The notes beneath the pieces are model-generated. The model saw only the letters and a program-made list of their open reading frames with translations, ran no database searches and was not told where the DNA came from. A stretch of 64,000 bases of DNA from Alphaproteobacteria bacterium (GTDB taxonomy: Bacteria; Pseudomonadota; Alphaproteobacteria; Ferrovibrionales; Ferrovibrionaceae), in the NCBI GenBank assembly GCA_017307375.1, contig JAFKFH010000004.1:558001-622000 (forward strand), in the 5' to 3' direction. Made by a program: the position numbers and the translations under genes. Of the stretch, positions 15,156 through 32,027 are shown one piece after another (position 1 is the stretch's first letter; each line of letters begins with the position of its first letter).

Positions 15156-15707
15156 ATGGCAGGCAGCGTCAACAAGGTGATCCTGATCGGCAATCTCGGC
15201 CGCGACCCCGAGGTGCGCCAGACGCAGAGCGGCGAGGATATCGTGCATCTGTCGATCGCGACCTCGGAAACCTGGCGCGACAAGAACTCGGGCGAGCGCA
15301 AGGAGCGCACCGAGTGGCACCGCGTGGTCATCTTCAACGACAATCTGGGCAAGGTCGCCAAGCAGTACCTGAAGAAGGGCGCGAAGGTGTACCTGGAAGG
15401 GACGCTGCAGACCCGCAAGTGGACCGACCAGCAGGGTCAGGAGAAGTACACGACCGAGGTGGTGATCCCGCGCTTCCGCGGCGAGCTGACCATGCTCGAC
15501 GGCCGCGGCGAGGGCGGCGGCGGCGGTTTCTCCAGCGGTGGTGACGATTACGACACCGGTGGCAATGGTGGCGGCTTCGGCGGCGGCCGGTCGTCCGGCG
15601 GCGGTTATGGTGGCGGTGGCGGCAGTGGTGGCGGCTTCGGCGGTGGCGGTGGCCGCGGCCAGTCGAACCCGAGCCGCGGCGATCTCGACGACGAAATCCC
15701 GTTCTGA
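15156..15707 (+). CDS. ssb: single-stranded DNA-binding protein
   Basis: A 183-residue SSB. Residues 1-112 form the OB fold ([20 protein letters not shown], then the [17 protein letters not shown] region). The linker at about 118-170 is extremely glycine- and serine-rich, and the protein ends in the acidic tip DLDDEIPF that recruits replication and repair partners. It acts in the cytosol as a tetramer in replication, repair and recombination. AAGGAA lies just before the ATG, and a rho-independent terminator follows 33 bp after the stop, so it is probably monocistronic. Confidence 0.97.
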
Positions 15708-15740
15708 TCGGCAGCAACCGGCAGGAAGATGCAGCTTGAT

Positions 15741-15770
15741 CCCGCCGCTTTCCGGCGGGGTTTTGCATTT
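15741..15770 (+). terminator. rho-independent terminator after ssb
   Basis: CCCGCCG and CGGCGGG form a stem around a CTTTC loop (15741-15759), followed by GTTTTGCATTTT. It lies between ssb and the LD-carboxypeptidase gene on the same strand. Confidence 0.85.
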
Positions 15771-15782
15771 TGAGGTGCGACG

Positions 15783-16721
15783 ATGGTGCCGTCCCCGCGC
15801 TGGCCCGGCCCGCTTCGCCCGGGCGACAAGGTCCGTTTCCTGTCGCCGGCCAGCCCGCCCGACCGGGCCGGCGTGCTGCGGCGGGCGGCGGTTTTGCGCG
15901 ATTGGGGCCTTGAAGTCGATTTCGGCAGCGCGACCTTCAACCGGGCAGGCTACCTCGCGGGCACGGATGACGAGCGACTGGCCGACTTCAACGCGGCGAT
16001 CGCCGATCCGGCAGTGCGGGCGATCATCGCCACGCGGGGTGGAAAAGGTTCCTACCGGATCGCCGACCGGCTGGATTTTGCGGGCCTGCGGGCGGATCCG
16101 AAGTTCATCGTCGGGTTCAGCGATATCGCCATCCTGCTCGCCGCCTGCATCAGGCATTGCGATCTGGTCGGCGTCCATGGCGCCCTGACCGGTGAGGGAG
16201 AAGAGGTCGACGCGGCCGCCGCCATCGCGTTGCGCCGTCTGCTGATGACGGCGGACGAGACCGTGATCGCGGCACGGCCCGACGAGGCGACGCATGCGCT
16301 GAGCACCGCGGGCGTGGCGCGGGGCCGGCTGGTCGGCGGCCACCTCGAGACCATTGCGGCGGGGGCGGGCTGGGCGCTGCCGCCGCTCGCCGGCGCCATT
16401 CTGCTGCTCGAGGCGGTCAACATGGGCATCGGCCAGGTCGATCGCCTGCTGACGATGCTGCGCAAGGCCGGGCATCTCGATGGTCTGGCCGGCGTCGCAC
16501 TGGGGCAATTTACCGGCTTCGACCCGGTCATCCTCGAGGTGCTTGGCGGCCATTTCGATACCCTTGATGTCCCGGTGCTGGGCGGTTTGCCGCTCGGACA
16601 CGGTGTCGCGCCGGTCTGCGTGCCGGTCGGGGCGGACACCATCCTTGATTCCGGTCGCCATCAGCTGATCGTGCGCCACCCGCAGATTGCCCGCGACGGG
16701 TCGGTTGCAACCCAGTGGTAG
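15783..16721 (+). CDS. LD-carboxypeptidase (peptidase family S66)
   Basis: A 312-residue serine peptidase that removes the terminal D-alanine from peptidoglycan tetrapeptides (LdcA) or cleaves microcin C-type conjugates (MccF). The S66 triad is visible: Ser113 in VGFSDIAIL, Glu210 in ILLLEAVNMG and His273 in PLGHGVAP. The length and order fit the family. No signal peptide is seen, so it acts in the cytosol in muropeptide recycling. It is the last ordinary gene before the accessory island; its end slightly overlaps possible upstream starts of the HprK-like kinase. Confidence 0.9.
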   Translation: MVPSPRWPGPLRPGDKVRFLSPASPPDRAGVLRRAAVLRDWGLEVDFGSATFNRAGYLAGTDDERLADFNAAIADPAVRAIIATRGGKGSYRIADRLDFAGLRADPKFIVGFSDIAILLAACIRHCDLVGVHGALTGEGEEVDAAAAIALRRLLMTADETVIAARPDEATHALSTAGVARGRLVGGHLETIAAGAGWALPPLAGAILLLEAVNMGIGQVDRLLTMLRKAGHLDGLAGVALGQFTGFDPVILEVLGGHFDTLDVPVLGGLPLGHGVAPVCVPVGADTILDSGRHQLIVRHPQIARDGSVATQW

Positions 16722-16768
16722 AAACGTTATGCATATTGACCCGTTCGGATTGGAAGCCCGGTCCGGTC

Positions 16769-17683
16769 ATGCAGCACGAAGATTTGGCGATCTGCGGCCT
16801 GCGGGTCCGCAGCGATCTTGCCCTCCCGGAACTCTTGCCGTGGACCGCGGATGCGCGCGGCGTCGATCTCGTCATCGAGCTCGGGGACGTACCCGACCGC
16901 GTGAGCGGCGCGGCCGAAACGCATCCCCTGATCCAGGTTTCGGCGGATGGCACTTGTCGCTTTGCGATGCCGGAAGTCGCCGCCTTTCTCGTATCGCCCG
17001 ACGGGCGTGCCGTCACCGTGGCGCCTTCGCCGGGGGCGACCGAGGCCGATATTCGCGTGTTCCTGCTGGGAACGGTCTTCGCGATCGTCTGTCAGCGCCG
17101 GGGCCTGCTGACGCTGCATGCCTGCTGCGTTCGCGCGGGGTCCAAGGCGGTCGCCTTCGCGGGGGACAGCGGCGTCGGGAAGTCGACGCTGGCCGCTCGC
17201 TTGCGGGCGCGCGGACATGCCTTGCTGACGGACGATGTCACGGTGGTCGACATGGAGGCGCCCGGCGGTCCGCTGGTCCTACCCACGTTCCCCCGGCTCA
17301 AGCTGTGGCGCGACGCCCTGGAAAGCCTGGGGCACACGGTCGACGGGGCAGGGGCGATACGACCCGGACTCGACAAGTACCAGCTGCCTCTCGACGACGG
17401 CTTCTGCAACACGCCGCTGCCGCTGGCGGCACTGGTGCGGCTCGACGGAAACCGCAAGGCGCCGGAGGGATTGCGGCTGCTCGATGCGGTGCAGGGGCTT
17501 GGCGAGCTGGGCAAGGTCCTGTACCGGCCAAGACTGATGCTGCGGCTGGGAACCCAGGCCCGGCAGATGGCGCAGTTTCTTCGGCTGCTCTCGTTCGTCG
17601 GTGGCTTGAGGACGCTGCGCCGCCCGGAAACCATGGCCGGCTGGAGCGAGGTGGAAGCGCTGCTGCCGGTGCTGGCGGACTGA
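16769..17683 (+). CDS. HprK-type kinase, candidate RiPP (lasso-like) peptide kinase
   Basis: About 304 residues with the C-terminal fold of HPr serine kinase. Walker A is GDSGVGKST at 132-140, preceded by LTLHACCV, and followed by the acidic pair Asp155-Asp156 (LLTDDVTVV) expected for phosphate transfer. It is not a sugar-control HPr kinase: the N-terminal domain differs and no PTS genes are nearby. Such kinases sit in lasso-peptide clusters (paeninodin-type) and phosphorylate the precursor's C-terminal serine. The ATG at 16769 starts at the family's usual first strand; a GTG at 16715 is an alternative. The sulfotransferase follows after three bases. Confidence 0.78.
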   Translation: MQHEDLAICGLRVRSDLALPELLPWTADARGVDLVIELGDVPDRVSGAAETHPLIQVSADGTCRFAMPEVAAFLVSPDGRAVTVAPSPGATEADIRVFLLGTVFAIVCQRRGLLTLHACCVRAGSKAVAFAGDSGVGKSTLAARLRARGHALLTDDVTVVDMEAPGGPLVLPTFPRLKLWRDALESLGHTVDGAGAIRPGLDKYQLPLDDGFCNTPLPLAALVRLDGNRKAPEGLRLLDAVQGLGELGKVLYRPRLMLRLGTQARQMAQFLRLLSFVGGLRTLRRPETMAGWSEVEALLPVLAD

Positions 17684-17686
17684 AGG

Positions 17687-18526
17687 ATGGGAGGCTTCTA
17701 CTGGATCGCCTCCTATCCCAAGTCGGGAAACACCTGGATGCGGCTGCTGCTTGCCAGCCTGATCGATGGCGGCGCCCCGCTCGATTTCAGCAGGCCTGTC
17801 GGTTTTGCGCCTTCGGCCGCGTCGCCGTCGGACATGGACCTCTTCCTCGACGTGGAATCGAGCGAGCTGACGCCGGTCGAGCAGACGGAATTGCGGCACG
17901 ATCTGGCGCTGGCGGTCGCGGCCGCGACGGCAGAGCCCCAGTATCGCAAGGTACACGATCGTTGGGGCCACAGCCCCTCCGGCCGGCCGCTGTTTCCGCC
18001 CGCGGCCACGCTGGGCAGCATCTATCTGGTGCGGGATCCGCGAGACGTTGCCGTTTCCTGGGCCCATCATAGCGGGACGACACTCGACGAAGCGATCGAC
18101 TTCCTGGGCAGGCCGGGCGCCGTCGTCGCGGCCGCCGGCAAGTGGCGGGACCAGTTCGAGCAGCGGGTCGACAGCTGGAGCGCCCATGTCGCCAGCTGGC
18201 TGGCGGCTGAGCCCGTGCCGCTGGTGGTCGCCTATGAAGCGCTGTCCGCCGATCCGCTGCGCGTCCTCGCGCAGGTCGCGATCCATTGCGGCCTCTCGGC
18301 TTCCGCCGATACCCTGGCCGGCGCCGTCGAAGCGACCCGCTTCGCCCGTCTGCAACAGCAGGAGCGTATCGACGGCTTCGAACTCGGCCAGAAAGCCGGC
18401 CGACGATTCTTTCGGCGCGGCATAGCGGGCGGATGGCGCGATACCCTGAGCCACGCCCAGGCCAACCGCATCGTCCGTGATCACGGCGCGATGATGGAGC
18501 GCCTTGCATACGACACCGGAGTCTAA
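17687..18526 (+). CDS. sulfotransferase domain protein
   Basis: A 279-residue protein of the PAPS-dependent sulfotransferase family. The 5'-phosphosulfate loop is ASYPKSGNTWMRLLL at about 8-22. The 3'-phosphate-binding region is LVRDPRDVAVSWAHH at about 109-123. The C-terminal FFRRGIAGGWRDTLS segment matches the family's final PAPS-contact loop. It would transfer sulfate to a hydroxyl or amine of a peptide, sugar or lipid. It lies three bases after the HprK-like kinase and is presumably in the same operon, which makes a peptide product a candidate substrate (inference). Confidence 0.87.
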   Translation: MGGFYWIASYPKSGNTWMRLLLASLIDGGAPLDFSRPVGFAPSAASPSDMDLFLDVESSELTPVEQTELRHDLALAVAAATAEPQYRKVHDRWGHSPSGRPLFPPAATLGSIYLVRDPRDVAVSWAHHSGTTLDEAIDFLGRPGAVVAAAGKWRDQFEQRVDSWSAHVASWLAAEPVPLVVAYEALSADPLRVLAQVAIHCGLSASADTLAGAVEATRFARLQQQERIDGFELGQKAGRRFFRRGIAGGWRDTLSHAQANRIVRDHGAMMERLAYDTGV

Positions 18527-18544
18527 CCGCAACGGAGGATCGGC

Positions 18545-18841
18545 ATGTTGACCTATGACGCGGCCAAGGCGGTCGAGGGTGGCTCGTTCACCATTAAAGC
18601 CGGCATGGGGCCGGCCCTGCCGCTGACGCTGGTGGAGGTGGTGGCCGGCCGCAATCGCGCCCCGGTTCCGGGCTTGCCCCAGGCCTTTTCCCTCTACCTG
18701 AAGGGTACGCCCGGCATCATCTGCCCGCAGGGCACCTATGTGCTCGAAAACCCGAGTCTCGGCAGGCTGGAGGTCTTCGTGGTGCCGGTAGGGGACGATG
18801 CCGAAACCGGTGAATTTCTCTATCAGGTGAGTTTCAACTGA
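18545..18841 (+). CDS. DUF6916 family protein
   Basis: A 98-residue protein with the features I associate with the DUF6916 group. Its middle is PFSL-like (AFSLYLKGTPGIICPQGTY), followed by LEVFVVPVG and a final aromatic strand (YQVSFN). GGAGG lies eight bases ahead of the ATG. Such proteins are often beside tail-collar-domain genes, as here (three copies, opposite strand). The function is unknown. It is the third gene of the run with the kinase and sulfotransferase and converges on the GNAT gene with a six-base gap. Confidence 0.7.
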   Translation: MLTYDAAKAVEGGSFTIKAGMGPALPLTLVEVVAGRNRAPVPGLPQAFSLYLKGTPGIICPQGTYVLENPSLGRLEVFVVPVGDDAETGEFLYQVSFN

Positions 18842-18847
18842 ACCCTG

Positions 18848-19396
18848 TCAGCCGGCGGAAGGCGGCACCCAATCCATCCGCAGATGGACTCCCCCGCCAG
18901 TGTCGCCCGGAACGAAACCAAGCCGGTCATAGAGGCGCCGGGCGGCCAGGTTGAATACCTCGACATGGATCGAAACGGCGGTCCCTGCGGCGCGCCCCTG
19001 CTCGAAGACGGCGCGGATCAGGCTGCTGCCGATGCCCAGCCCGCGATGGCTCGGCAGCATCGAGATGTCGATGATTCGAAGGTCCGCCGGTCCCTGGTGG
19101 AGATAGAGCCGGCCGACCGGCGTGCCGGCATCGGTGACGATCCCCCAGGCGGCGCCGAAATAGTGCCGCTTGTAATGGCGTGACTGGAAGACGAACTGAT
19201 CGCCGAGGAACGCAAGCTTTGCCTCGTCCGTCCAGTCCGCGCCGGCAAGTTCCTCCCAGCGAACCGAGATATAGAGCCGCCGGAGAAATTCCGTGTCCTG
19301 CTCGGTTTCCCGACGCAGGCCCATCCCCCGCGCCGACAACTCGGGCGGCACGGGGGGCAGGGGCGTGGGGGCGGCGCTGTTCGCGCTGACGCTCAT
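18848..19396 (-). CDS. GNAT-family N-acetyltransferase
   Basis: A 182-residue acetyl-CoA-dependent transferase. The acetyl-CoA loop is LPSHRGLGIGSSLI at about 114-127 (R/Q-x-x-G-x-G/A type). The C-terminal region LAARRLYDRLGFVPG matches the last GNAT motif. It is the last gene of a four-gene minus-strand unit after the three tail-collar proteins, 15 bp from the nearest one. The substrate is unknown; acetylation of a neighbouring gene product is a guess from context. Confidence 0.85.
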   Translation of the reverse strand: MSVSANSAAPTPLPPVPPELSARGMGLRRETEQDTEFLRRLYISVRWEELAGADWTDEAKLAFLGDQFVFQSRHYKRHYFGAAWGIVTDAGTPVGRLYLHQGPADLRIIDISMLPSHRGLGIGSSLIRAVFEQGRAAGTAVSIHVEVFNLAARRLYDRLGFVPGDTGGGVHLRMDWVPPSAG

Positions 19397-19411
19397 CGGC
19401 TCGTCAGTCCG

Positions 19412-19978
19412 TCAGGGGCGCTCCGGATAGAGCCCATCGTTGATGCAAATGCAGAAATTGAGGCTGAGATAGGGCGAAACGTTGTTGTGCGGCTGCGCCG
19501 CGCTGGCCCCGAAATAGCCCACCGACGCGTCCGACATCGTCGTCTTGTTGACCGCATTGTTATAGGGCGTCCACGCATCGTAGACGGTCGTGATGTTGAG
19601 CCGAGGGATCGAGACGAAAGAGTCGGCACTCGGACCCGCCGTGATCTTATTCTTGGTCTGGACACTGACCGCCTGATGCGTATGCGACGGCATGTTCGAA
19701 TTGTTGATCGTTACGGCATTCCCGCCCGTGGTCGCCGCCAGTTCCAGCGTCCTGGAATCCCCGCCTACCACGGCCGATCCCGTACCGGCCGTGACCCGCC
19801 CGCGCAGATCCGGAACGTTGAAATAGGTCTTTTGGTCGCCGCCGTATAACCAGCCGATCAAGCTGTAGAGTGCCTGATGCTGCGCGATGGGAAGTCTCTG
19901 CCCCCAGCAATAGGCCCAGTTTTGCGGCGCATAATTGAAAGTGTAGGCCCGGATTTCTCCGTAGAACGCGTCGGCCAT
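19412..19978 (-). CDS. phage-tail-collar-domain protein 1 (MdpB-like)
   Basis: A 188-residue protein of the tail fibre/collar family sometimes called microcystin-dependent protein. It starts with a strand that repeats in all three copies (YGEIRAYTFNYAPQNWAYCWG). It then has PIAQHQALYSLIGWLYGGDQ, the collar core YFNVPDLRGRVTAGTG, and ends with NVSPYLSLNFCICINDG. GGGAGAAG lies before the ATG. There are no other phage structural genes, so this is not a prophage tail. The function of these stand-alone collar proteins is not established. Confidence 0.85.
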   Translation of the reverse strand: MADAFYGEIRAYTFNYAPQNWAYCWGQRLPIAQHQALYSLIGWLYGGDQKTYFNVPDLRGRVTAGTGSAVVGGDSRTLELAATTGGNAVTINNSNMPSHTHQAVSVQTKNKITAGPSADSFVSIPRLNITTVYDAWTPYNNAVNKTTMSDASVGYFGASAAQPHNNVSPYLSLNFCICINDGLYPERP

Positions 19979-20005
19979 CGTCGCTTCTCCCTGGTTGCCG
20001 GGCGG

Positions 20006-20542
20006 TCAGGCGGGTGACGGAAAGATGCCGTTGGTGGCAATGATGTAATTGATGCCCATGGTCGGCATCACGTTGTCGTGGGGTTTCGGTGATGCCGACC
20101 CCGACGACGAGACCATCTCCGGCGCCATATTGACCCGTGCCGTGTCCACCGCGTAATCGGTGAAGCCACTGGTTGCGGTGGCGAAGACAACTGTCGGCCC
20201 AGGGGTGGTCGTCGTGGCGGGATCCGTGCTGGCCCGGAACGGATGCGTGTGGACCGGCAGGTTCTTGTCACTCAGCGCGACGGTGAACTGGCCACCGGGA
20301 TTACCCAGCTTGTAGGTGTTGGCCATCTTCGGCGGCTCGGTGTCGGACCTGCCGACGGGTACGCGGACAGACAGGTTCGGGATGCCGAACGTCGTCTTGC
20401 CGTCGCCCCCGTACGTCGTTCCGAGCAGGGTGTACAGCACTTCGTATTGCTGGATGGGCAAGAGTTGCCCCTGACAAAACAGCCAGCCGACGGGGGCGAA
20501 GTTACCAGCGAACAGACGGATTTCGCCTGCATAGGGGTCCAT
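20006..20542 (-). CDS. phage-tail-collar-domain protein 2
   Basis: A 178-residue paralogue of the flanking proteins. It has YAGEIRLFAGNFAPVGWLFC at the N-terminus, then QYEVLYTLLGTTYGGDGKTT and FGIPNLSVRVPVG, and ends NVMPTMGINYIIATNG. The ATG at 20542 is supported by an AGGAG site on the minus strand; the open frame runs 28 codons further without support. In the middle of a three-copy tandem array. Confidence 0.87.
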   Translation of the reverse strand: MDPYAGEIRLFAGNFAPVGWLFCQGQLLPIQQYEVLYTLLGTTYGGDGKTTFGIPNLSVRVPVGRSDTEPPKMANTYKLGNPGGQFTVALSDKNLPVHTHPFRASTDPATTTTPGPTVVFATATSGFTDYAVDTARVNMAPEMVSSSGSASPKPHDNVMPTMGINYIIATNGIFPSPA

Positions 20543-20585
20543 CGATATCTCCTGCTTCAATGCTTCACAGGCGGGGGCCGCGACC

Positions 20586-21320
20586 TCATAAGTCGCGCGG
20601 CGGATAGATCGCCCGGTTGACGGCAATGCAGTACATCATCGGCAGGAACGGTTGCCGGTTCTCGTGCGCCACACCGGCTCCGGCATTGCCGAGGCTGGCC
20701 GCATTCAGCGCCAGCAGGTTCGTAGCCTGCGGCGGGGAACCGACGGGCCCTTTGATGTGGATGTCGGCGACATCCTCGACGCCGGAGACAGGGTCACCAA
20801 TTCCGGGGCCTCCCCCCGGTATACCGCCATTCTGGTGACCGGGACCATTGAATGGACCGCGGATTCCGACCGTCGGCACACCATAGAGATTGGGCGGGGA
20901 AGGGCCGACCGTGACGCTGGCCGGCTTGATGCACGTAGCCGGGATGCTCGCGCTTGCGACCAGAGAAGACGTCGCATTTCCCGTATCCGCCACGATCGTA
21001 TGATTGTGGATTGGGGTTTGTTCTCCCGTAAGAACGACTCCCTCCTGGCCCCCAGTGGCACCGAGCGCCAGGGTTGTGCCCGACGCTGAAATGCGCGTGT
21101 TGTCCGGAATGGCGCCAGTGCCGGCGATGGCCCTGCCACGCAGATCGGGCAGGGCGAAGGTGGTCTTGCCGTCACCGCCATAGGTCGTCATCAGCAATGA
21201 GTACAGGGCTTGATAGTCTCTGATGTTCAACAGCTGGCCGGAACACTCGATCCAGCCATTTGGAGGCTTGCCATTCGCGTAAGGAAACAGCCGGATTTCG
21301 CCTAAGAAATAGTCGCCCAT
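20586..21320 (-). CDS. phage-tail-collar-domain protein 3
   Basis: A 244-residue paralogue and the first gene of the minus-strand array. The N-terminus is FLGEIRLFPYANGKPPNGWI. The core is YQALYSLLMTTYGGDGKTTF and ALPDLRGRAIAGTG, and the end is RQPFLPMMYCIAVNR. It carries an extra 55-65-residue insertion rich in Gly and Pro (around 150-190) that the other two lack. AGGAGGGAC precedes the ATG. The three proteins are clearly duplicated then diverged. Confidence 0.87.
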   Translation of the reverse strand: MGDYFLGEIRLFPYANGKPPNGWIECSGQLLNIRDYQALYSLLMTTYGGDGKTTFALPDLRGRAIAGTGAIPDNTRISASGTTLALGATGGQEGVVLTGEQTPIHNHTIVADTGNATSSLVASASIPATCIKPASVTVGPSPPNLYGVPTVGIRGPFNGPGHQNGGIPGGGPGIGDPVSGVEDVADIHIKGPVGSPPQATNLLALNAASLGNAGAGVAHENRQPFLPMMYCIAVNRAIYPPRDL

Positions 21321-21543
21321 ACCGTCCCTCCTGGTTGCTGATGCTTGATTTCACTCCCCACACGTTCACTAAGAGAAACTGGACATAAGCGCACGTAAAG
21401 TGTAATATTGTGTATTAGAGTCCAATTTTTTGTAGACAACCTATTAAAACCGCGCATGAGTTGGGTCGCGCTGCCGGTGTCCGGCCTGTGACCCTTGCCT
21501 CCCGACTGATTCCTGTGCCGCCCGCCCAGAACGGAGTTTGATG
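21321..21543. promoter_or_regulatory. divergent, AT-rich intergenic region ahead of the candidate precursor peptide
   Basis: The tail-collar unit runs leftward from 21320 and the candidate precursor rightward from 21544. A patch at about 21390-21450 is far more AT-rich than its surroundings and contains several TATA-like hexamers on both strands. It is the natural place for divergent promoters, but no pair of boxes is convincing enough to name. Confidence 0.5.
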
Positions 21544-21699
21544 ATGGATCAAGCCTCTGAAGAAGCTTCCTCGGCCCAGGTGCAGCATGTTTCTTCGAAA
21601 CCTGTATGGGCCAAGCCGGAGTTTACTGTTCTTCCATTGACCCAGACCCTGAACACTGCCTCGCGGACGACGGACACTAGTCCGGCATCGAGGAGTTGA
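21544..21699 (+). CDS. candidate RiPP (lasso-peptide-like) precursor peptide, 51 residues
   Basis: A short gene with CGGAG seven bases ahead of the ATG at 21544 (another ATG is at 21541). The leader contains KPVWAKPEFTVLPL (residues 19-32), a W-x-x-P-x-F-x-x-L pattern like the leader motif that PqqD-type proteins bind in lasso systems. Thr35 would be the conserved Thr at position -2, putting cleavage after Leu36. The 15-residue core NTASRTTDTSPASRS has Asp at position 8, suitable for an eight-residue macrolactam ring. It ends in Ser, the site used by HprK-like lasso kinases. Asn as first residue is unusual. It lies 33 bp before the cyclase-like gene. The role is inferred. Confidence 0.6.
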   Translation: MDQASEEASSAQVQHVSSKPVWAKPEFTVLPLTQTLNTASRTTDTSPASRS

Positions 21700-21732
21700 C
21701 CGCACACCCCGGCGGGATCCCGGAAGGGTGTC

Positions 21733-23625
21733 TTGACCATCGTTTTCGGCGCCTGCGGCGGGGTTGTTCCGCCCGGTCCTGAACCCTACACGCAGGCGTT
21801 GCGCCGATACCCCGATGTCGGCGAAGTCGATCGCTATCTGGACGAGACCTGTTTCGTGGCTGTCGGGCATAAGGCCCGCACGCGGCAGCGCCGAAGCAAT
21901 CGGCGACCGATGGTTTGTGCCGATGGGCGCCATATGCTGGCCCTGGAAGGGTGGCTGGCAAATCGCGATGAACTCTCCGCCGCTCTCGGGCTCGCTGCGG
22001 TGACGGACGATGCCATCGTGGCCCAGGTCCTGTTGCGTTGGGGGTCCGACGGGCTGCTGCGCCTGCATGGCGACTTCGCGATCGCGTGGTGGGATGCCGT
22101 CGAGCGACGCCTGTTGCTGGCGACGGACCGCACAGGAGGGCGGGCGCTGTTTTTTCACGAGGCGCCCGGCCGAATATTTTTCGCCAACATCGTCAGTCCG
22201 CTGTTCGCACACCCGCGAGTGCCCAGGGAACTTGATCCGGAGATGGTCGCGCGCGCCGCTTTCACGGCGTCGCTGGATTGGGAAAAGACCTGTTTTCGTG
22301 GAATCCGCCAGCTATTGCCAGGCCAGTTGCTCGATTGGTCGGCGGCAACCGGTGCCCGGATATCGCGCTATTGGCGGCTCGATCCGGGACGCCGGGTGCG
22401 GTTCCGGCGCGATGACGATTATGTCGAGGCGGCCCGCGACCTTCTCGATCTGGTCGTCGGGGAGGCGATGCCGCATGATGGCCTGCTCGCCTCGATGCTC
22501 TCGGGCGGGCTCGACTCCGGCGGCATCGCGGCGACCGCGGCACGTCTTGCGGGCTCCAGGCCCATCCATACCTTCACGGTCCGCCCGGATCCGGCCAGCC
22601 CGCTGCCCGCATGCGGGCCGGGTCATATCCAGGACGAATGGGCCCATGCCCAGGCAACCGCCCGGCTGCACCCCACGATCGTGGCGCATGCGGTGCCGGC
22701 AAGCCTGGAGTCGTTCGAGGAAACGACCCGCAGCGGCTTTCACTGGGCCGGGCGTCCGCCGATCCATCTGCTGCCGGCGACCTGGTTGCGCGGGGCCTGG
22801 ACGCAGGCGCGCAGTCTCGGGGCCGCGTCGATATTCGTCGGCCTGTCGGGAAATGCCACGTTGTCGGCATCGGCCCTGCCGAATTCCCTGCGGCCGAAAT
22901 GGCGGGACATGCCCGAGGCCTTGTATGCCGCTGCCCTGGCGGCAAGCCAAGACATGCCGGTATTGCCGCATCTGCTGGCCTTCACGCCGCAATGGCTGCG
23001 CGATCTGCGGGCCCGCCTGCCGCACGGGGCGCCGATCTGGCGCCGGCACACGGCATTGCGTGAAGCGGCCGCGCAGGCGATCGACATGGACGGGATCTGG
23101 CGATCCTTCCACGCCGGGGATTCCGCTGCATCCTGGCGCCGCCGCGCCAGGCTGCGGCTGATGGAGCGCACCGCGGTGGCGCGGACCATGTCGACATGCC
23201 AGCATTTTCGCGACGGCATCGAGCGGCGCGATCCGCTGGGCGATGTCCGGCTGGCCGAATTCTGCCTGGCCATTCCGCCCGACCAGTTCACGCGGCTGGG
23301 CCACGACCGTTTCCTGGCCCGCCGCGTGCTGTCTGATCGCCTGCCGTCAGAAGTGCTGGCCGAACGGCGCAGCGGCGTGCAGATCGCCGAATGGTTCGAC
23401 TGGGCGTCGCGCCGGCGTGACTGGCTTGCCGCCGAACTCGACGGAATCGAGGCCAGCGCGCTGGGGCGCGAGACAATCGATGTCCCGCGCCTGCGCAGCA
23501 TCCTCGCCGACTGGCCGGCCGACGCGAACACGGCCGAGCCCCGCTATGGCGAACTGATGAACCTGCTGGGCCGCGGGGTTGCGATCGGCTCGTTCATCAG
23601 GTGGGCCGAAGGTAGCAATATTTAG
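21733..23625 (+). CDS. asparagine synthase homologue, candidate lasso-type macrolactam synthetase
   Basis: A 630-residue protein with an N-terminal glutamine-amidotransferase-like domain (about 1-200) and a C-terminal ATP-PPase domain. The nucleotide loop is SGGLDSG at 257-263. The catalytic Cys2 of true glutamine-dependent asparagine synthetases is absent (Thr2), as in lasso cyclases, which adenylate a side chain and close an isopeptide bond with the core N-terminus. TTG at 21733 is used, with GGAAGGG upstream. It follows the candidate precursor by 33 bp and meets the PqqD gene tail-to-tail with three bases between. Confidence 0.82.
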   Translation: MTIVFGACGGVVPPGPEPYTQALRRYPDVGEVDRYLDETCFVAVGHKARTRQRRSNRRPMVCADGRHMLALEGWLANRDELSAALGLAAVTDDAIVAQVLLRWGSDGLLRLHGDFAIAWWDAVERRLLLATDRTGGRALFFHEAPGRIFFANIVSPLFAHPRVPRELDPEMVARAAFTASLDWEKTCFRGIRQLLPGQLLDWSAATGARISRYWRLDPGRRVRFRRDDDYVEAARDLLDLVVGEAMPHDGLLASMLSGGLDSGGIAATAARLAGSRPIHTFTVRPDPASPLPACGPGHIQDEWAHAQATARLHPTIVAHAVPASLESFEETTRSGFHWAGRPPIHLLPATWLRGAWTQARSLGAASIFVGLSGNATLSASALPNSLRPKWRDMPEALYAAALAASQDMPVLPHLLAFTPQWLRDLRARLPHGAPIWRRHTALREAAAQAIDMDGIWRSFHAGDSAASWRRRARLRLMERTAVARTMSTCQHFRDGIERRDPLGDVRLAEFCLAIPPDQFTRLGHDRFLARRVLSDRLPSEVLAERRSGVQIAEWFDWASRRRDWLAAELDGIEASALGRETIDVPRLRSILADWPADANTAEPRYGELMNLLGRGVAIGSFIRWAEGSNI

Positions 23626-23628
23626 CCG

Positions 23629-23913
23629 TTAGCCCTCGGTGATCAGCAGTCCTTTCGCCGACAGACCTTCGACGAGGAAGATCACGTCGGCCTCGATAAC
23701 GCTCAAGTCTCCCGCGTAACTTTCGGCCAGTTCGGCCACGAGTTCCTGGATCGTCCTTGGCTCGACAAGACGGTGCCAGATGTCCGAGGCGACTGGATTG
23801 AGGCTGTAGTATTCGCCAAGTTCAGCATTCATCGTCACCATTTCGCCGTTGATTTCGGCGGCCGGGACGTCTGGCTTGCGACGAACGCGGGTTTGTCGAC
23901 TGATCGATGCCAT
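23629..23913 (-). CDS. PqqD-family peptide chaperone (RiPP recognition element)
   Basis: A 94-residue stand-alone PqqD-like protein (MVTMNAELGEYYSLNPVASD, then IWHRLVEPRTIQELVAEL). These proteins bind leader peptides and hand them to the processing enzymes; in split lasso systems this is the B1 protein. Its presence strongly supports a ribosomal peptide pathway. It is on the opposite strand from the cyclase-like gene, which is unusual because these genes are normally co-directional. Confidence 0.85.
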   Translation of the reverse strand: MASISRQTRVRRKPDVPAAEINGEMVTMNAELGEYYSLNPVASDIWHRLVEPRTIQELVAELAESYAGDLSVIEADVIFLVEGLSAKGLLITEG

Positions 23914-24195
23914 GCCGCCTCTGCAGTGCGTGTGAACCGAGTCCTACAAGAGCTTCGTTTTCCAGGGAACAGAAATCTCGGTTGCGCCCGGCCTGGGCGG
24001 CAAGCGGGGCAAGAAGAGTTTACAGTCATGCAAGTTTACCCGGGGCGCCGCGGCAGGCCGCCGACGAGCAGCTGGATCGACGAACCGCTCGACTTCATCA
24101 TGCTGATCCGGATAAAGGACGATGGATATGCAAATTGACCCCCATCGTCACCGAGATGCCTGGATCGGCCACGGCCCGACTTGCGCGGTCCCGAG
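23914..24195. other. intergenic region upstream of the ABC transporter, B2 position
   Basis: About 280 bp between the PqqD start and the small frame at 24196. In split lasso operons the B2 leader peptidase usually lies here. No transglutaminase-like Cys-His-Asp protein can be read in any frame. Two weak overlapping frames (24029-24138, 36 residues; 24129-24203, 24 residues) chain into the next one but have no recognisable content. It should also hold the promoters of pqqD and the transporter. Confidence 0.45.
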
Positions 24196-24345
24196 ATGCT
24201 GACTTTGCTCGCAGGCCGCGATTTCAGGGCTCACCGGTTGCGGCACCGTGCGCTGGCTGGGCGTTCGCGTCTGTTTCTTGACCTTTCGAACCCCGGGAAG
24301 CGGCGGCTATGCGGCCCGCTCCCCGACCAGGATGGCCAGGTGTGA
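24196..24345 (+). CDS. small 49-residue ORF coupled to the ABC transporter start
   Basis: An arginine-rich frame starting MLTLLAGRDFRAHRLRHRAL. Its TGA (24343-24345) overlaps the GTG (24342) of the transporter in the same four-base arrangement that many coupled genes here show. It has no recognisable family, and codon choice is only moderately like neighbouring genes. It could be a real short protein, the tail of a decayed B2-type gene, or chance. Confidence 0.3.
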   Translation: MLTLLAGRDFRAHRLRHRALAGRSRLFLDLSNPGKRRLCGPLPDQDGQV

Positions 24346-26096
24346 GCGCCCCGTCGCTGGGACCGCTGATTCGCCATGTTTCGACGATCGGGCGGGCCCG
24401 GATCGTCTGGGTCCTCGTGCTGAGTGCCGTTGCGGGACTGGCCGAGGCGGCAGGGGTACTGGCGCTGCCGCCGCTGTTGACGATCATCGGGGTCGGCAAT
24501 GGCGCGACCGGCGCGACCGACGCGTCGCTGCTTGCAGCGCTCTTTGGCTATGTCGCGCTGATCTGCCTGGCGGCCCTGGTCGTGCGTGCCAGATCCCTGG
24601 CTGTCGACGGCCTCGCGCGGGATGTCGCCGATCGCCTGCGCAGCACGTTGCACGCCGCGGTGCTGTCGATGGAATGGGCACGATTTCGCAGTTTGCGCGT
24701 CGGCGAAATGCAGCAGGCCATCGCGGGCGAAACCGGCAAGGTCGGGCAGGGTGTCGTACAGGCGATGGCGGTGGCCGGGTCGCTCTGCACGATCCCTCTC
24801 GTCCTGGTTGCCGCCCTCTCCCTGTCGCCGGCGATGACACTGTCCGCCATGGCTGCCGCCCTCACCATCATTCTGGTGACCCGGAAATTCGACCACAGGG
24901 GCTATCGCGTCAGCCGGGAAATGGTGGCGACAAACCGCCTGGCGATGGCCGACCTGGCCGACGATCTCGCGGGCATGCGTATCATCAAGGGGTTCGGCGC
25001 CGAGGCCGCCCGCGCTGCCGGGATTGCGAAACGCTTCGATGCCGTAAGGGCCGGTTTGCGGGCCTATGAGCGACTGCGCGCCAACGAACGCGCGATATTT
25101 CAGGTCGCTGCGGCATCCGCCGTCGCCGCGACCCTCTATCTGTCGATCGCCGTCTTCGCCGTGCCGCTCGCCGAGGCCCTGGTGCTGATCCTCGCCTATG
25201 GCCGCCTCGTCCAGACCACCTTGAACGGGCTTTCCAGTTGGCGCCAGCTCGATGGCGCGCTGGCCGTGCTTGCCTCGTATGACGAGACGCTGGCCGATTG
25301 CCGCAATGCCCGGGAACCGGTCGAGCCGGCGCCGATTGCGATGCCGCGGCATGCGATCCGCCTGCGCGGGGTCGGGGTTGTCTATCCGTCGGCAGAAGGC
25401 GGTCAAGCCGGTCTCGATGGCATCGATGCCGACATTCCGGTCGGCCGGGTGACGGCTATAATCGGGCAGTCGGGCGCGGGCAAGTCGACGCTGGTCGACC
25501 TGCTGTCCGGCCTGACCGCACCCGATGTGGGCGACCTGTGGCTCGACGATGCCAGGCTGCCTGCGGCGCGTCGAACCGCTTGGCGGCAGCGCACGGCGAT
25601 CGTGCCGCAAGACCCGTTCCTCTTTCACGACACGATCGCCGCGAATCTTCGTCTGGCCCGGCCTGATGCCGACATCCAAGCGCTGTGGAGTGCGCTGGAA
25701 CAGGCCGCCGCCGCCGATTTCGTCCGCGCGCTTCCGTCAGGGCTCGATACGGTCGTGGGCGACCGCGGTGCCCGGCTGTCGGGCGGCGAACGCCAGCGGA
25801 TTGTTCTTGCGCGCGCACTGCTGCGCCAACCCGCCCTGCTCGTGCTCGACGAGGCTACCGCGGCGCTCGATGCTGGGACCGAGGCCGCCGTCGCCCGGGC
25901 TCTGGCCGCGCTGCGCGGCAGTTGCACGATGGTTGTGGTGGCTCACCGGCCAGGCACTGTGCAATCGGCAGATCACGTCCTGTTGCTGGATGCAGGCAAG
26001 CTGGTTGCCGCGGGCAATTGGGAACAAGTGCGGCAACAGGCTGGTGGTCTCATCACCGCCCTGGGGATGATGGACACCGCAACGGACAAAGTGTGA
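24342..26096 (+). CDS. ABC transporter, fused permease and ATPase, probable peptide exporter
   Basis: About 584 residues: a six-helix permease domain (about 20-320) and a C-terminal ATPase with Walker A GQSGAGKST at 375-383, signature LSGGERQ at 479-485, Walker B LVLDEAT at 500-506 and an H-loop (VVVAHRPG). It works as a dimer in the inner membrane. There is no N-terminal C39 peptidase domain, so it cannot remove a leader itself. It would export the mature peptide and give self-protection (inference from cluster type). The GTG at 24342 is chosen for its overlap with the preceding small frame; ATG 24309 would add 11 residues. Confidence 0.88.
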   Translation: MSAPSLGPLIRHVSTIGRARIVWVLVLSAVAGLAEAAGVLALPPLLTIIGVGNGATGATDASLLAALFGYVALICLAALVVRARSLAVDGLARDVADRLRSTLHAAVLSMEWARFRSLRVGEMQQAIAGETGKVGQGVVQAMAVAGSLCTIPLVLVAALSLSPAMTLSAMAAALTIILVTRKFDHRGYRVSREMVATNRLAMADLADDLAGMRIIKGFGAEAARAAGIAKRFDAVRAGLRAYERLRANERAIFQVAAASAVAATLYLSIAVFAVPLAEALVLILAYGRLVQTTLNGLSSWRQLDGALAVLASYDETLADCRNAREPVEPAPIAMPRHAIRLRGVGVVYPSAEGGQAGLDGIDADIPVGRVTAIIGQSGAGKSTLVDLLSGLTAPDVGDLWLDDARLPAARRTAWRQRTAIVPQDPFLFHDTIAANLRLARPDADIQALWSALEQAAAADFVRALPSGLDTVVGDRGARLSGGERQRIVLARALLRQPALLVLDEATAALDAGTEAAVARALAALRGSCTMVVVAHRPGTVQSADHVLLLDAGKLVAAGNWEQVRQQAGGLITALGMMDTATDKV

Positions 26097-26215
26097 GGTG
26101 CACACTTGTTGCATTCTAATCGTTGCTTCAGTCAAGGTCATCCCGCGAATAGCTTGAATTCGATGCGCGTCGACGAACTGCTAGGGTTTGCAATAATATT
26201 ATCAAGGCTGCGGGC

Positions 26216-28225
26216 ATGAGAAAGATCGGATTGATTCGCGACATAAAGAAACTCGATGCACTGATTGCTCGCGCTTCTTGGAATGATATCATCGTTCTCG
26301 CCCCGCAGATGCTAAGGCGCCATGGGCGCGATCATGCTTTACTCCGACGGATCGCGCAGGCGCAGGAAGCCGTTCACGGCGAGTCCGGATCCTTGCAGCT
26401 TTGGCTTGAGGCGGCTGCAGCATTTCCTGGCGATAGTGCCCTGCAAGATGATCTCGCCGATCGGCTTGACCGTGCTGGTCGCCCCGGCGATGCCTGCATT
26501 GCACGGTTTCGGGCATGGCAAGCAGGCGGATCGAGTGGGCGATCCTTGACCGCCTTAGGTCAATACCTCATTGGGACTGATCAGACACTGACGGCAGATC
26601 GAGCCTATGACGGCTTCTTTTTCCTGCGCGAGGCATTGTCAAAGACCAGTCAGCCGTCGATACCGGCCACGATCGCCGTCAACGCCTACGTTGCCATGAA
26701 GAGGGAATCGGCCGCGGCGAACGTTTTACGGGAGGCGATTGCGCTCGATCCCGCGGACCCGAATAGTTGGCGAACGGCGGGTGCGGTCGCCTTTATCCGG
26801 GGGCGGGTTTCCGAAGCGGACTCCGCTTTCCAGCGTACAATCAGTCTGTGCAACGATAGTCGTTCGAAAATAATGCAGGCTCTTCTCATCGAGGGAGTTC
26901 CAGTATCAAGAAAATCAATTACCGATTCACGAACAAGGATTTCGAGAAATTTAGATAATTTGATGAGCGATTTTGACATTAAAGTAGATATCGCTCAAAG
27001 CAATGAAAATTTACTTTTTAACCTTTTCAGTTTTGCTTACCATGGTGAAAACGACCGCCCCCTGTTGGAGAAAATTGCTGGTTTTTTCCGACATGTGTCA
27101 CCGAGCCTGGTCTGGACTTCGCCGCATGTCCACAGCCAGCTTCGAGCCAAAGGGCCGATCCGCATCGGATTTGCCGGGTCGCTGCATATTCATGCCATCA
27201 ATATGATGATAAAGGCCATAATTGCGGGCCTGGATCCCGATAGATTTGCGGCGACATGCTTCACTTTGCATAGTGGCGGAAGCATCTATGACGGAAAGAT
27301 CGGTAATGTAAGTGTCGTGGTACTGCCTAATAATTTGATTTCTGCGAGAGATATTATTTCAGATTATAATCTGGATATAATTTTATATACGGATGTTTTT
27401 CTTGATAACTTCTTTTACTTTCTTGCGTTCTCTCGACTCGCGGGCGCCCAATGCTTATGGCCAGGTCATCCTTCCACATCGGGCCTGTCTTCGATCGATT
27501 ATTTTATATCTTCGTCGCCATGCGAACCGGCAAATGCGCAGGACGCCTATACTGAAAAACTTCTTCTGAATCCAGAACTCAATCTTGTTTATCCATCCGT
27601 ACAAAACGAAAAGGAGTATGTAAATATAAATGAATTCGACCTGTCTCGCGATATGAATATCTATGTCTGTGCGCAGACGCTATATAAATTACATCCTGAT
27701 TTTGATTTTATTGTAGATGAAATTCTAAAACTTGATCAATCAGGCGTCGTTGTGTTTTTTGAGAACAGCCATGCCGACCGGGCGACGGCGATCACTGATC
27801 GTTTTACTGCATTGCGTTCGCGCCACGGCGAAAATCGTGTCCGCGTACTACCCAGACTGGCCTTCGGACGATATCTTGGGCTTATCGAGCAAGCGGACGT
27901 CATGCTGGACACGCCCCATTTCTCCGGTGGTAATACGACACTGCAAGCCCTTCAACTAGGCGTCCCTGTGGTCACCCGCCCGTCCGCCTATCTTCGCGGA
28001 AGATCGAGCACAGGTTTTTATTCGGTAATGGGTTTTTCGACTTTGGTGGCGGACACTGACGAGGAATATGTCCGCTTGGCGATCAGATTAGCTAATGACA
28101 AGCCATTTAATGCTTGGTGCCGGTCAGAAATCCTGAACAAAAAAGACAAGTTGATCAATCGTACCGACGTGATCGGTGGGTTTGCTGATCTATTTGAGAA
28201 GATTTGCCCGCGTTGTTCTAGCTGA
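26216..28225 (+). CDS. TPR protein with O-GlcNAc-transferase-like (GT41) domain
   Basis: A 669-residue protein. The N-terminal 230 residues are helical repeats of TPR type (for example AANVLREAIALDPADPNSWR). The C-terminal half resembles GT41 (OGT/SPINDLY, HMW1C) enzymes: GHPSTSGLSSIDYFIS near 420-440 corresponds to the conserved GxPxTxGLxxIDY segment, and FSGGNTTLQALQLGVPVVTR near 565-590 to the UDP-binding segment. It would move a sugar onto a peptide or protein in the cytosol. The gene is clearly more AT-rich than its neighbours, notably 26880-27760, suggesting recent acquisition. It ends in an 8-bp tail-to-tail overlap with the formyltransferase gene. Confidence 0.8.
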   Translation: MRKIGLIRDIKKLDALIARASWNDIIVLAPQMLRRHGRDHALLRRIAQAQEAVHGESGSLQLWLEAAAAFPGDSALQDDLADRLDRAGRPGDACIARFRAWQAGGSSGRSLTALGQYLIGTDQTLTADRAYDGFFFLREALSKTSQPSIPATIAVNAYVAMKRESAAANVLREAIALDPADPNSWRTAGAVAFIRGRVSEADSAFQRTISLCNDSRSKIMQALLIEGVPVSRKSITDSRTRISRNLDNLMSDFDIKVDIAQSNENLLFNLFSFAYHGENDRPLLEKIAGFFRHVSPSLVWTSPHVHSQLRAKGPIRIGFAGSLHIHAINMMIKAIIAGLDPDRFAATCFTLHSGGSIYDGKIGNVSVVVLPNNLISARDIISDYNLDIILYTDVFLDNFFYFLAFSRLAGAQCLWPGHPSTSGLSSIDYFISSSPCEPANAQDAYTEKLLLNPELNLVYPSVQNEKEYVNINEFDLSRDMNIYVCAQTLYKLHPDFDFIVDEILKLDQSGVVVFFENSHADRATAITDRFTALRSRHGENRVRVLPRLAFGRYLGLIEQADVMLDTPHFSGGNTTLQALQLGVPVVTRPSAYLRGRSSTGFYSVMGFSTLVADTDEEYVRLAIRLANDKPFNAWCRSEILNKKDKLINRTDVIGGFADLFEKICPRCSS

Positions 28226-29099
28226 ACTGGGTACCGATGACTGGCAACGGCTCCAGCAGCACTCGCAGGCGGCTTCCCTGCCCGCACTGAACTTCGCACC
28301 ATCCCGTGTTGTCGACGGCAAGAACGCGACCAGGGGGGGCGTCGTTCTGAACGCCCTGGATGATTTCGGCGCGGCGCACCAGTGTCTCGCGGCCATCCGG
28401 TGCGATGGTGTAGGCTGGTGGCAAAGGCATCGGCAGGGCTCGAATCAGGTTGAAGATGGCCCGCGCCGGCTTGGCCCAGTCAATCTGACCATCGGCTGCA
28501 GTGCGCCTGCGGCCATAACTCGGCGCATGGCTCGAGACGATCGGCATCGGCAGGGTGTCATTCGCCGCGGCAAATCGGAAGGTCGACACGGCAAGCTCGG
28601 CGGCAAGCTGGTCCAGATCCTCGGTCAGGGACCAGAGATCGTGGTGATCCGCTATCGGGAGGGCAGCCTGCGCCACAATCGGCCCGGTATCGATACCGGC
28701 GTCGATACGATGGATCGTCACACCGGTTTTCTCCGCTCCGTCGATAAGGGCCCAGGATACCGGATGGAAGCCGCGATAGCTGGGAAGCAGCGACGAATGG
28801 ATGTTCAGCGCCCCGATGCGCGGCGCCTCAAAAACCAGAGCCGGCAAAAGTTCGAAACGACAGACGAGCAGAAGGTCGAGTTCACCCACCATTCCTGACA
28901 GTCGCGTTTTGTCGTTGTCGTGCAGCGCTACGTCAAGATCCCCGGCCGCCGAGGCCATGTCGGCCTGGTCGTTTTCTGGCAATCCTCTTGGCAGCATCAC
29001 GAAGTCAGGACGGAAGCCGGCGGCAGTCAACGCCTTGAGGCAGGCTATCGCCTGAGGTTTCCCGCCGGCCAGGGCCCAGCGCAGTCTGATCAATCCCAC
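28218..29099 (-). CDS. formyltransferase (Fmt/ArnA-like)
   Basis: A 293-residue 10-formyl-tetrahydrofolate-dependent transferase. The catalytic residues Asn99, His101 and Asp137 lie in ALNIHSSLLPSYRG and RIDAGIDTGPI. A C-terminal Fmt-like beta domain follows (from about 200). In this setting it is more likely to formylate an amino group on a sugar nucleotide or peptide than to be the housekeeping Met-tRNA formyltransferase, which is normally beside def. GTG at 29099 overlaps the upstream metallo-hydrolase by ten bases; TTG at 29093 has better ribosome-site spacing. Confidence 0.8.
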   Translation of the reverse strand: MGLIRLRWALAGGKPQAIACLKALTAAGFRPDFVMLPRGLPENDQADMASAAGDLDVALHDNDKTRLSGMVGELDLLLVCRFELLPALVFEAPRIGALNIHSSLLPSYRGFHPVSWALIDGAEKTGVTIHRIDAGIDTGPIVAQAALPIADHHDLWSLTEDLDQLAAELAVSTFRFAAANDTLPMPIVSSHAPSYGRRRTAADGQIDWAKPARAIFNLIRALPMPLPPAYTIAPDGRETLVRRAEIIQGVQNDAPPGRVLAVDNTGWCEVQCGQGSRLRVLLEPLPVIGTQFS

Positions 29100-30514: not shown

Positions 30515-30799
30515 TGTTCGAATTCCAATATCCTGTGCTGCACTCACGCTGGTCTGACCTAATCGATCGCCAGAAGGAAGTCCAATTCATTGATCATGCT
30601 GACGGCCGATGCAGCGGCGGATCAGGGGGGCAAATCGTCGCACCGGGCTGCTTGATGACCGGGGAGATGTTGTCCGGCAAGGCCCTGTGGCGGCGGAGGT
30701 CCACGAGCACAACCGCATTGTGGCCGGAAATCGCAGTACGGCAAGGCCCCCTTCGGCTGGTATGTCTTGTTGCTGCCGCATGCTTCCCCACGGTTCGAT

Positions 30800-31807: not shown

Positions 31808-32027
31808 ATGCGCGGCAGCAGGCGTTGCCCGTAGCTCGACAGCCTCGCAGCGTATCGGTCTTGCATCCTTGAGGTGTTCTGCCGGGGGGCGTCCTTCGCG
31901 GCTGCGAAACTTGCTGCCTACGGGCCGATCTGATAGACGGGAGCAGTCTTGCCGCGCCCTGTGCGCGCAGGTCCGGTTTGCCGCCTCAAACCGCATGCCT
32001 GGCTCAGAATTATATGGGTAACCCGAC

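Follow-up and report, generated by a model that had tools for sequence, protein, structure and literature searches.

Whether a short open reading frame of 51 residues (plus strand, 21544-21699), located directly ahead of a cyclase-like gene, encodes the precursor of a lasso peptide is the question raised by this locus, whose gene cluster is unusual in that it adjoins three phage-tail-tip genes and is without the usual leader-cutting gene. All positions refer to the window, i.e. the whole stretch of 64,000 nucleotides that was analysed. We consider it probable, with good though not overwhelming confidence, that this ORF encodes the precursor of a lasso peptide belonging to the kind with a kinase and a C-terminal Ser, and that its sequence is new.

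The probable precursor gene and its predicted peptide

The ORF starts with an ATG at 21544, which is preceded by CGGAG, and ends with a TGA at 21697-21699; two other in-frame start codons, an ATG at 21541 and a TTG at 21538, are located upstream. Its translation, MDQASEEASSAQVQHVSSKPVWAKPEFTVLPLTQTLNTASRTTDTSPASRS, is comprised of a leader (residues 1-36) with the motif W22xxP25xF27 (WAKPEF) and T35 at position -2, and of a predicted core (residues 37-51), NTASRTTDTSPASRS, with a predicted ring from N37 to D44 and a terminal S51. WAKPEF, which is kept in relatives, follows the lasso leader pattern [Y/W]xxPx[hydrophobic], and T35 and D44 represent the Thr at -2 and the Asp/Glu at core positions 7-9 that are typical for lasso precursors. 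The first-pass annotation, made on the letters of the sequence, had pointed to a 51-residue gene with a good ribosome site ahead of a cyclase-like gene and to W22, P25, F27, T35, N37, D44 and S51, all of which were read again in the present analysis.

The gene is located between the third tail-collar gene (minus strand) and the cyclase-like gene, the TTG start codon of which (21733) lies 33 bases past the precursor stop. The stretch upstream of the precursor (21321-21543) has a G+C content of 52%, versus 66% for the window. This divergent intergenic region contains a sigma-70-like promoter candidate (21380-21409, plus strand; a consensus match only), with two overlapping matches to the consensus upstream of the precursor versus a mean of 0.1 in shuffled sequences. 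Within the limits applied, the peptide could not be assigned to any family of Pfam, NCBIfam or PHROGs, and it matched no PDB chain.

Organization of the cluster

The genes between 16715 and 26096 are arranged in the order kinase, sulfotransferase, DUF6916, GNAT (minus strand), three tail-collar genes (minus strand), precursor, cyclase, RRE (minus strand) and ABC exporter. The asparagine-synthase-like cyclase of lasso systems (C) is represented by the gene at 21733-23625 (plus strand), whose product contains a PF00733 domain scoring over the Pfam cut-off as well as GATase domains, and has lasso cyclase NF033535 as its best NCBIfam match (155.8 bits, below the cut-off of 525). The residues of its ATP loop (S257, G259, L260, D261 and S262) are invariant in 10 aligned sequences. 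The lasso B1 protein is represented by a stand-alone PqqD-type RRE (23629-23913, minus strand; PF05402, over the cut-off), with lasso PqqD NF033536 as its best NCBIfam match (48.2 bits, below the cut-off of 80) and the lasso B1 proteins 9x90_B, TbiB1 and TfuB1 as its best PDB matches. None of the three proteins, cyclase, B1 and kinase, reaches its NCBIfam cut-off. The ABC exporter (D; 24309-26096, plus strand; PF00664 and PF00005) has a homologue that adjoins B2 and cyclase in Niveispirillum lacus (L114).

Five neighbouring genes were tested, and none was conserved together with the lasso block. The LD-carboxypeptidase S66 gene (15783-16721), which overlaps the start of the kinase gene, was rejected as a partner, having no homologue in any fetched locus; rejected as well were the genes at 26216-31807 (glycosyltransferase 41, formyltransferase, metallo-beta-lactamase-fold and GNAT/FemAB-like proteins), which are not conserved with the cluster, the sole exception being a short glycosyltransferase match in L091. 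PADLOC had no family fitting the seven cluster proteins tested. As gyrA is found at 32028 and an ORF resembling ssb (by eye) precedes the LD-carboxypeptidase gene, the lasso block is placed as if inserted in a housekeeping region (15156-32028).

Conservation of the precursor in related loci

In related genomes, similar peptides are encoded next to a lasso-type cyclase, a kinase or tail-collar proteins. Peptides with the W-x-x-P-x-hydrophobic motif precede the cyclase in loci of the same-family genomes G015 and G017, and also in another region of the genome that contains the window; in L034 such a peptide is placed elsewhere in the locus. The W, P, T and D are invariant in nine sequences aligned by MAFFT. 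Among 48 curated peptides, nine of which were found solely by a regular expression requiring a terminal S, T or G and most others by HMMs trained on peptides of the same kind, 39 combine T(-2) with Asp/Glu at core position 8 or 9 (mean of 6.2 and at most 15 over 2000 shuffles), and the last residue is Ser in 46 (7.0 in shuffles). Left out of the 48 were chance-motif ORFs (e.g. L088 2501-3163 and L062 8033-8605) and three later pattern matches that are also precursor-like (L054 7877-8281, L077 656-826 and L083 1549-1743). The full leader-plus-core pattern was found in 37 of 23,420 ORFs, versus 0.4 per shuffled set (five sets).

Since the curated set is partly pattern-selected, loci fetched by their cyclase provide a cleaner test. 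From the 502 relatives yielded by an alignment query, 80 loci were retained, 34 of which were examined; a single-protein search of genome contigs with the window's cyclase found no relative. Ten new peptides were obtained from these loci with an HMM whose model stops before the last residue: nine have T(-2) and an acidic residue at 8 or 9, and all ten end in Ser, the most constant residue of the core. The alignment of short genes of relatives, which had been proposed as a check on the peptide, thus bore out the conserved Trp, Pro, Thr and Asp with some exceptions, and the peptide proved neither restricted to the window nor deprived of its Thr and Asp in homologues.

The nine curated exceptions are found in L055, L062, L070, L078 (two peptides), L080, L085, L088 and L096, and that of the second set in L135. 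T(-2) is absent in the peptides of L055, L062, L080, L085, L096 and L135 and in the two of L078, the peptide of L070 has its acidic residue at core position 10, and the final Ser is missing in two peptides of L068. The precursor-like peptide of L088 (9223-9483) has a final Ser and no acidic residue at core 8-9, and L066 (5540-5755) and L067 (4984-5673) encode peptides with YxxP leaders and longer, Gly/Arg-rich cores beside cyclase, B2 and kinase genes. By a crude count, the per-site ratios of non-synonymous to synonymous changes in three orthologous precursor pairs are 0.40, 0.35 and 0.10 (raw synonymous/non-synonymous changes of 10/14, 12/14 and 3/1). The ORF at 21544-21699 is more than a chance coding pattern.

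Asn as first core residue is rare among proven lasso peptides, and to that extent the doubt raised by the first-pass annotation stands; the residue is not isolated, however, since it occurs in seven of the 39 curated T(-2) peptides and in metanodin (see below).

Closest relatives and distribution

The closest relatives in which a precursor was found are Azospirillum sp. B506, N. lacus and Magnetospirillum sp. 64-120, whose peptides share with that of the window the W-x(12)-T spacing, T(-2), Asn1, Asp8 and the final Ser; the B506 precursor has the C-terminal end WSRPGFETLELERTLNNGEVTADSTADQDPYS. From kinase to RRE, the gene order of the window is matched by that of Azospirillum sp. B506, where the genes lie on two contigs and encode proteins that are 49-80% identical. 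The B506 genes are open and conserved where seen, the cyclase being interrupted by a contig end, and no exporter was seen in this colinear stretch. A contig of a Sulfuricella MAG (L113) encodes an equally close cyclase (48%) and is too short to reveal a precursor.

When whole genomes were searched with the kinase profile, matches were found in three of the 18 genomes of the family (E <= 1e-20) and in at least 24 of 385 genomes of the class (E <= 1e-25), the latter figure being a lower bound because six candidates were scored per genome; the window's genome is included in both counts. The loci examined represent 47 of the 51 kinase matches of the class search. The second lasso-type region of the window's genome (L026, contig C38 398000-417000, ~165 kb away) contains two cyclases, two kinases, two RREs, one sulfotransferase and two precursors. 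One of these precursors carries Cys both at core position 4 and in its tail, a feature shared with L028, L029 and L072, which makes a ring-tail disulfide possible.

The leader peptidase B2

The transglutaminase-like leader peptidase B2 expected in a lasso cluster is absent from the window, in which HMM and tblastn searches found neither a gene nor a recognisable remnant, the best values being chance-like. For this reason the cluster is described as working like a lasso system, and its membership is provisional. Comparable clusters do carry a B2 gene (PF13471), e.g. L112 and L114, and B2 genes are part of such clusters in N. lacus and Magnetospirillum sp. 64-120. A single PF13471 match in the genome of the window exceeds the Pfam cut-off of 26 bits. 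It scores 65.7 bits, is located on contig C16 at about 786.9 kb (L046 8810-9271), possesses the Cys and His motifs and is unlinked to the cluster; two further matches, of 19 and 12.3 bits, are below the cut-off. No lasso-type gene and no precursor were found in the 18 kb around the C16 gene. In B506, a B2-like stretch beside the cluster (L121 2038-2772) is frameshifted and without the catalytic Cys, which could partly be due to errors in this draft genome, and another B2, with Cys and His motifs present, is located on a different contig.

In 21 of 40 fetched loci with a cyclase plus a kinase or RRE, no B2 was found in the stretch (up to about 20 kb, some ended by contig ends), yet 19 of the 20 genomes tested encode a B2 somewhere. 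In genomes G050, G057, G178 and G275, the only B2 found sits apart from the examined kinase loci, and its surroundings contain none of the lasso genes apart from an ABC-transporter match in L092. Tistrella mobilis is one organism in which B2 is unlinked and none was found beside the clusters. Such lone B2 genes in genomes with B2-less clusters indicate that B2 may act in trans. This is the simplest reading for the window's precursor, to which we would give an even chance. Extra B2 genes located outside the clusters, beside an ABC-transporter gene, were also observed in L047 (G017) and L048 (G015), where one cluster has its own B2. Not every case can be accounted for by a distant B2, since genome G021 has a locus (L054) with cyclase, RRE, kinase and sulfotransferase and no B2 match anywhere in the genome. 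B2 may also be dispensable, as pseudomycoidin was reported to be formed in vivo in the absence of both leader and leader peptidase (title cited in PMC8498205). Among the literature matches listed (open-licence PMC), nothing on point was found for B2 acting in trans.

The absence of B2 from the window, the damaged B2-like stretch in the B506 draft and the G021 locus would also be expected if this were a decaying lasso cluster, the product of which is no longer made after the loss of B2. We consider such decay unlikely, because the other genes of the window, as those of B506 where seen, are open and conserved, because both genomes have an unlinked B2 with its Cys and His motifs, and because clusters without a local B2 are frequent in genomes that nearly always encode one.

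Kinase and sulfotransferase

The HprK-related kinase gene (16715-17683, plus strand) encodes a protein that matches PF07475 with 28.1 bits (below the cut-off of 33.3) and TIGR04352 (HprK_rel_A) with 40.8 bits (below the cut-off of 200). Residues H135, K156, D173 and D174, presumed to be catalytic by our own assignment, are invariant in nine aligned sequences; a His-Lys-Asp-Asp motif is named for HprK-like lasso kinases (PMC9266682). According to reviews, the target of such kinases is the Ser at the C-terminal end of the precursor, and the threaded peptide is not modified by the paeninodin kinase (PMC8498205, PMC9266682). The combination typical for the HprK-type, C-terminal-Ser kind, i.e. a kinase with this motif and a precursor ending in Ser, is found in the window. 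The earlier suggestion that an HprK-like kinase could act on the terminal Ser has thereby gained a kinase gene with an invariant motif and a near-constant target residue, and S51 is the likely phosphorylation site as judged from these sequences.

The kinase gene is directly followed by a sulfotransferase gene (17687-18526, plus strand; PF00685, E 8.5e-23), and 31 of the 49 fetched loci that have the kinase also have a sulfotransferase. A sulfotransferase is carried by some Firmicutes lasso clusters as well (reviewed in PMC8498205), and none of the wordings used to look for sulfated lasso peptides occurred in the open-licence PMC literature.

The tail-collar module

The region between sulfotransferase and precursor encodes a DUF6916 protein (18545-18841, plus strand; PF21880), a GNAT acetyltransferase (18848-19396, minus strand; PF00583) and three tail-collar proteins (19412-19978, 20006-20542 and 20586-21320; all minus strand and PF07484). 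The DUF6916 protein is 80% identical in Azospirillum sp. B506; its model (pLDDT 91) has no fold match at E <= 0.001, and its best PDB match is a diffocin baseplate chain (E 0.09). In L114 and L115, a GNAT gene is found at the corresponding place. The three collar proteins differ from one another, and B506 has a separate best partner for each, in the same order, with 50, 60 and 49% for proteins 1, 2 and 3, respectively (the copy of protein 2 used in the searches was minus its first two residues). Three distinct, conserved paralogues suggest that the collar proteins may form a hetero-trimer. The profile of the collar family matches T4 short tail fibre gp12, which is a trimer, and other tail fibres in the PDB. 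The model of tail-collar protein 2 (mean pLDDT 68.8) is confident in its N-terminal part only and was consequently used as support only. Beyond the collar, the proteins encoded at 15783-31807 matched no phage-tail family in Pfam.

Collar triplets, defined as three separate frames within 5 kb and compiled by hand from the best eight collar and best six kinase candidates scored per genome, lie within 15 kb of a kinase match in nine of 21 cases in the class sample, versus 0.28 expected. Without the window's genome and the three genomes supplying rows of the collar profile, this is so for five of 17 triplets, versus 0.24 expected. In the cyclase-fetched set, nine of the 34 loci examined have three or more collar ORFs, the N. 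lacus locus among them. As neither a lasso gene nor a precursor was matched for other triplets (e.g. L097, L098 and L102), the link between collar and lasso genes is frequent, not obligatory. In L099, L101 and L105 (G050 and G178), a precursor-like ORF is found upstream of the triplet on the same strand, with no cyclase match in 18 kb. No paper was found in open-licence PMC that combines 'lasso peptide' with 'tail collar', or phage tail collar with asparagine synthase and sulfotransferase, and the matches for 'lasso peptide' with 'tail fiber' are apparently unrelated, judged by title and the start of the abstract.

Proposed biosynthesis

The lasso reading is supported by the position of the precursor ahead of a lasso-cyclase-like gene, by a B1-like RRE nearest to solved lasso B1s, by the conservation of leader and core, with the shared W-x(12)-T spacing, N1...D8 and terminal Ser, and by the low non-synonymous rates, as well as by the B2 of comparable clusters, the unlinked B2 of the window's genome and the WxxP leaders of paeninodin-like precursors. 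Against it count the local absence of B2, the G021 case, the sub-cut-off NCBIfam scores, the exceptions among the peptides and the rarity of Asn1.

From this set of genes we infer a threaded product and the following chemical steps. B1 (23629-23913) would bind the W22xxPxF motif of the leader, and the cut after L36, guided by T35, would be made by a B2 cysteine protease whose gene lies at another place in the genome. The cyclase (21733-23625) would activate D44 and join it to the amine of N37, resulting in an eight-residue ring and a seven-residue tail. It is quite improbable that the macrolactam with the predicted N1-D8 ring stays unthreaded (branched-cyclic), or that the core has another first residue: Arg50 is the only bulky plug in a short tail that is rich in Ser, and the motif-to-Thr spacing is one residue shorter than in many relatives, but the same spacing and Asn1 are found in the three closest relatives with a precursor. 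Very unlikely is a linear phosphorylated RiPP like those of the LPP family, made by B1 and kinase without a ring and with another peptidase removing the leader, for although no B2 is present in the locus and a discrete RRE, HprK kinase and exporter are common to LPP clusters, LPP peptides have a YxxP leader, an SpI-like peptidase and no cyclase (PMC13381572), whereas the window has a leader with W, a cyclase with an intact ATP loop directly after the precursor, conserved D/E at core 8/9 and no signal-peptidase family in the 15 gene products scanned besides the precursor (15783-31807).

For a lasso peptide, the HprK-like kinase would phosphorylate S51 at the C-terminus, probably while the precursor is still linear, the sulfotransferase encoded next to it would add a further group somewhere on the peptide, and the ABC exporter would release the product; the collar triplet, GNAT and DUF6916 proteins may form a partner module of the cluster. 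A wider, tentative scenario, which we regard as possible but doubtful, is that of a dispersed system in which several precursor/cyclase/kinase loci are served in trans by one unlinked B2, and in which the phosphorylated or sulfated lasso peptide works with a hetero-trimeric, tail-tip-like fibre of the three collar proteins, e.g. as cargo, ligand or receptor probe.

The cluster adds a group of kinase-bearing lasso clusters that is spread over the class of the window's genome, and that is characterized by a C-terminal Ser that hardly varies, by a sulfotransferase that is often paired with the kinase and by the recurrence of Asn1. It makes testable whether one unlinked B2 serves many lasso loci, and why tail-tip proteins accompany a lasso peptide. 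What paeninodins and LPPs do is described as not known (PMC13381572), and a recurrent fibre partner would be a first clue to it.

Comparison with known systems

The tail-collar proteins of the window resemble the collar of T4 short tail fibre gp12 (PDB 1ocy and 1pdi) in sequence profile and fold, but differ from it in being about 180-240 residues each and in being encoded by three tandem genes. Metanodin, a reported lasso peptide with Asn1, likewise has Asn first in the ring and Thr at -2; its sequence is different, and its cluster comprises genes A, B and C, with kinase and sulfotransferase unmentioned in the main text (PMC12670498). In paeninodin-like lasso precursors of the Bacillota, the WxxP of the leader is nearly invariant and the clusters carry HprK kinases; the window shares with them the WxxPx[hydrophobic] leader, the stand-alone B1, the HprK kinase and the cyclase, but an NTP transferase is typical for these clusters, whereas that of the window is alphaproteobacterial, has a sulfotransferase and lacks a local B2 (PMC13381572). 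A kinase-bearing lasso system of the Proteobacteria is SyanA/SyanK of Sphingobium yanoikuyae (PMC8498205, PMC9266682), which is similar in its HprK-like kinase and in the C-terminal Ser of the precursor as target. Compared with SyanA as known through these reviews, the window has a kinase-paired sulfotransferase and a tail-collar module, and is without B2. New here are the association with a tail-collar module, the pairing of kinase and sulfotransferase, the group of peptides with Asn1 and the lack of a local B2, while the core logic is that of a known lasso kind.
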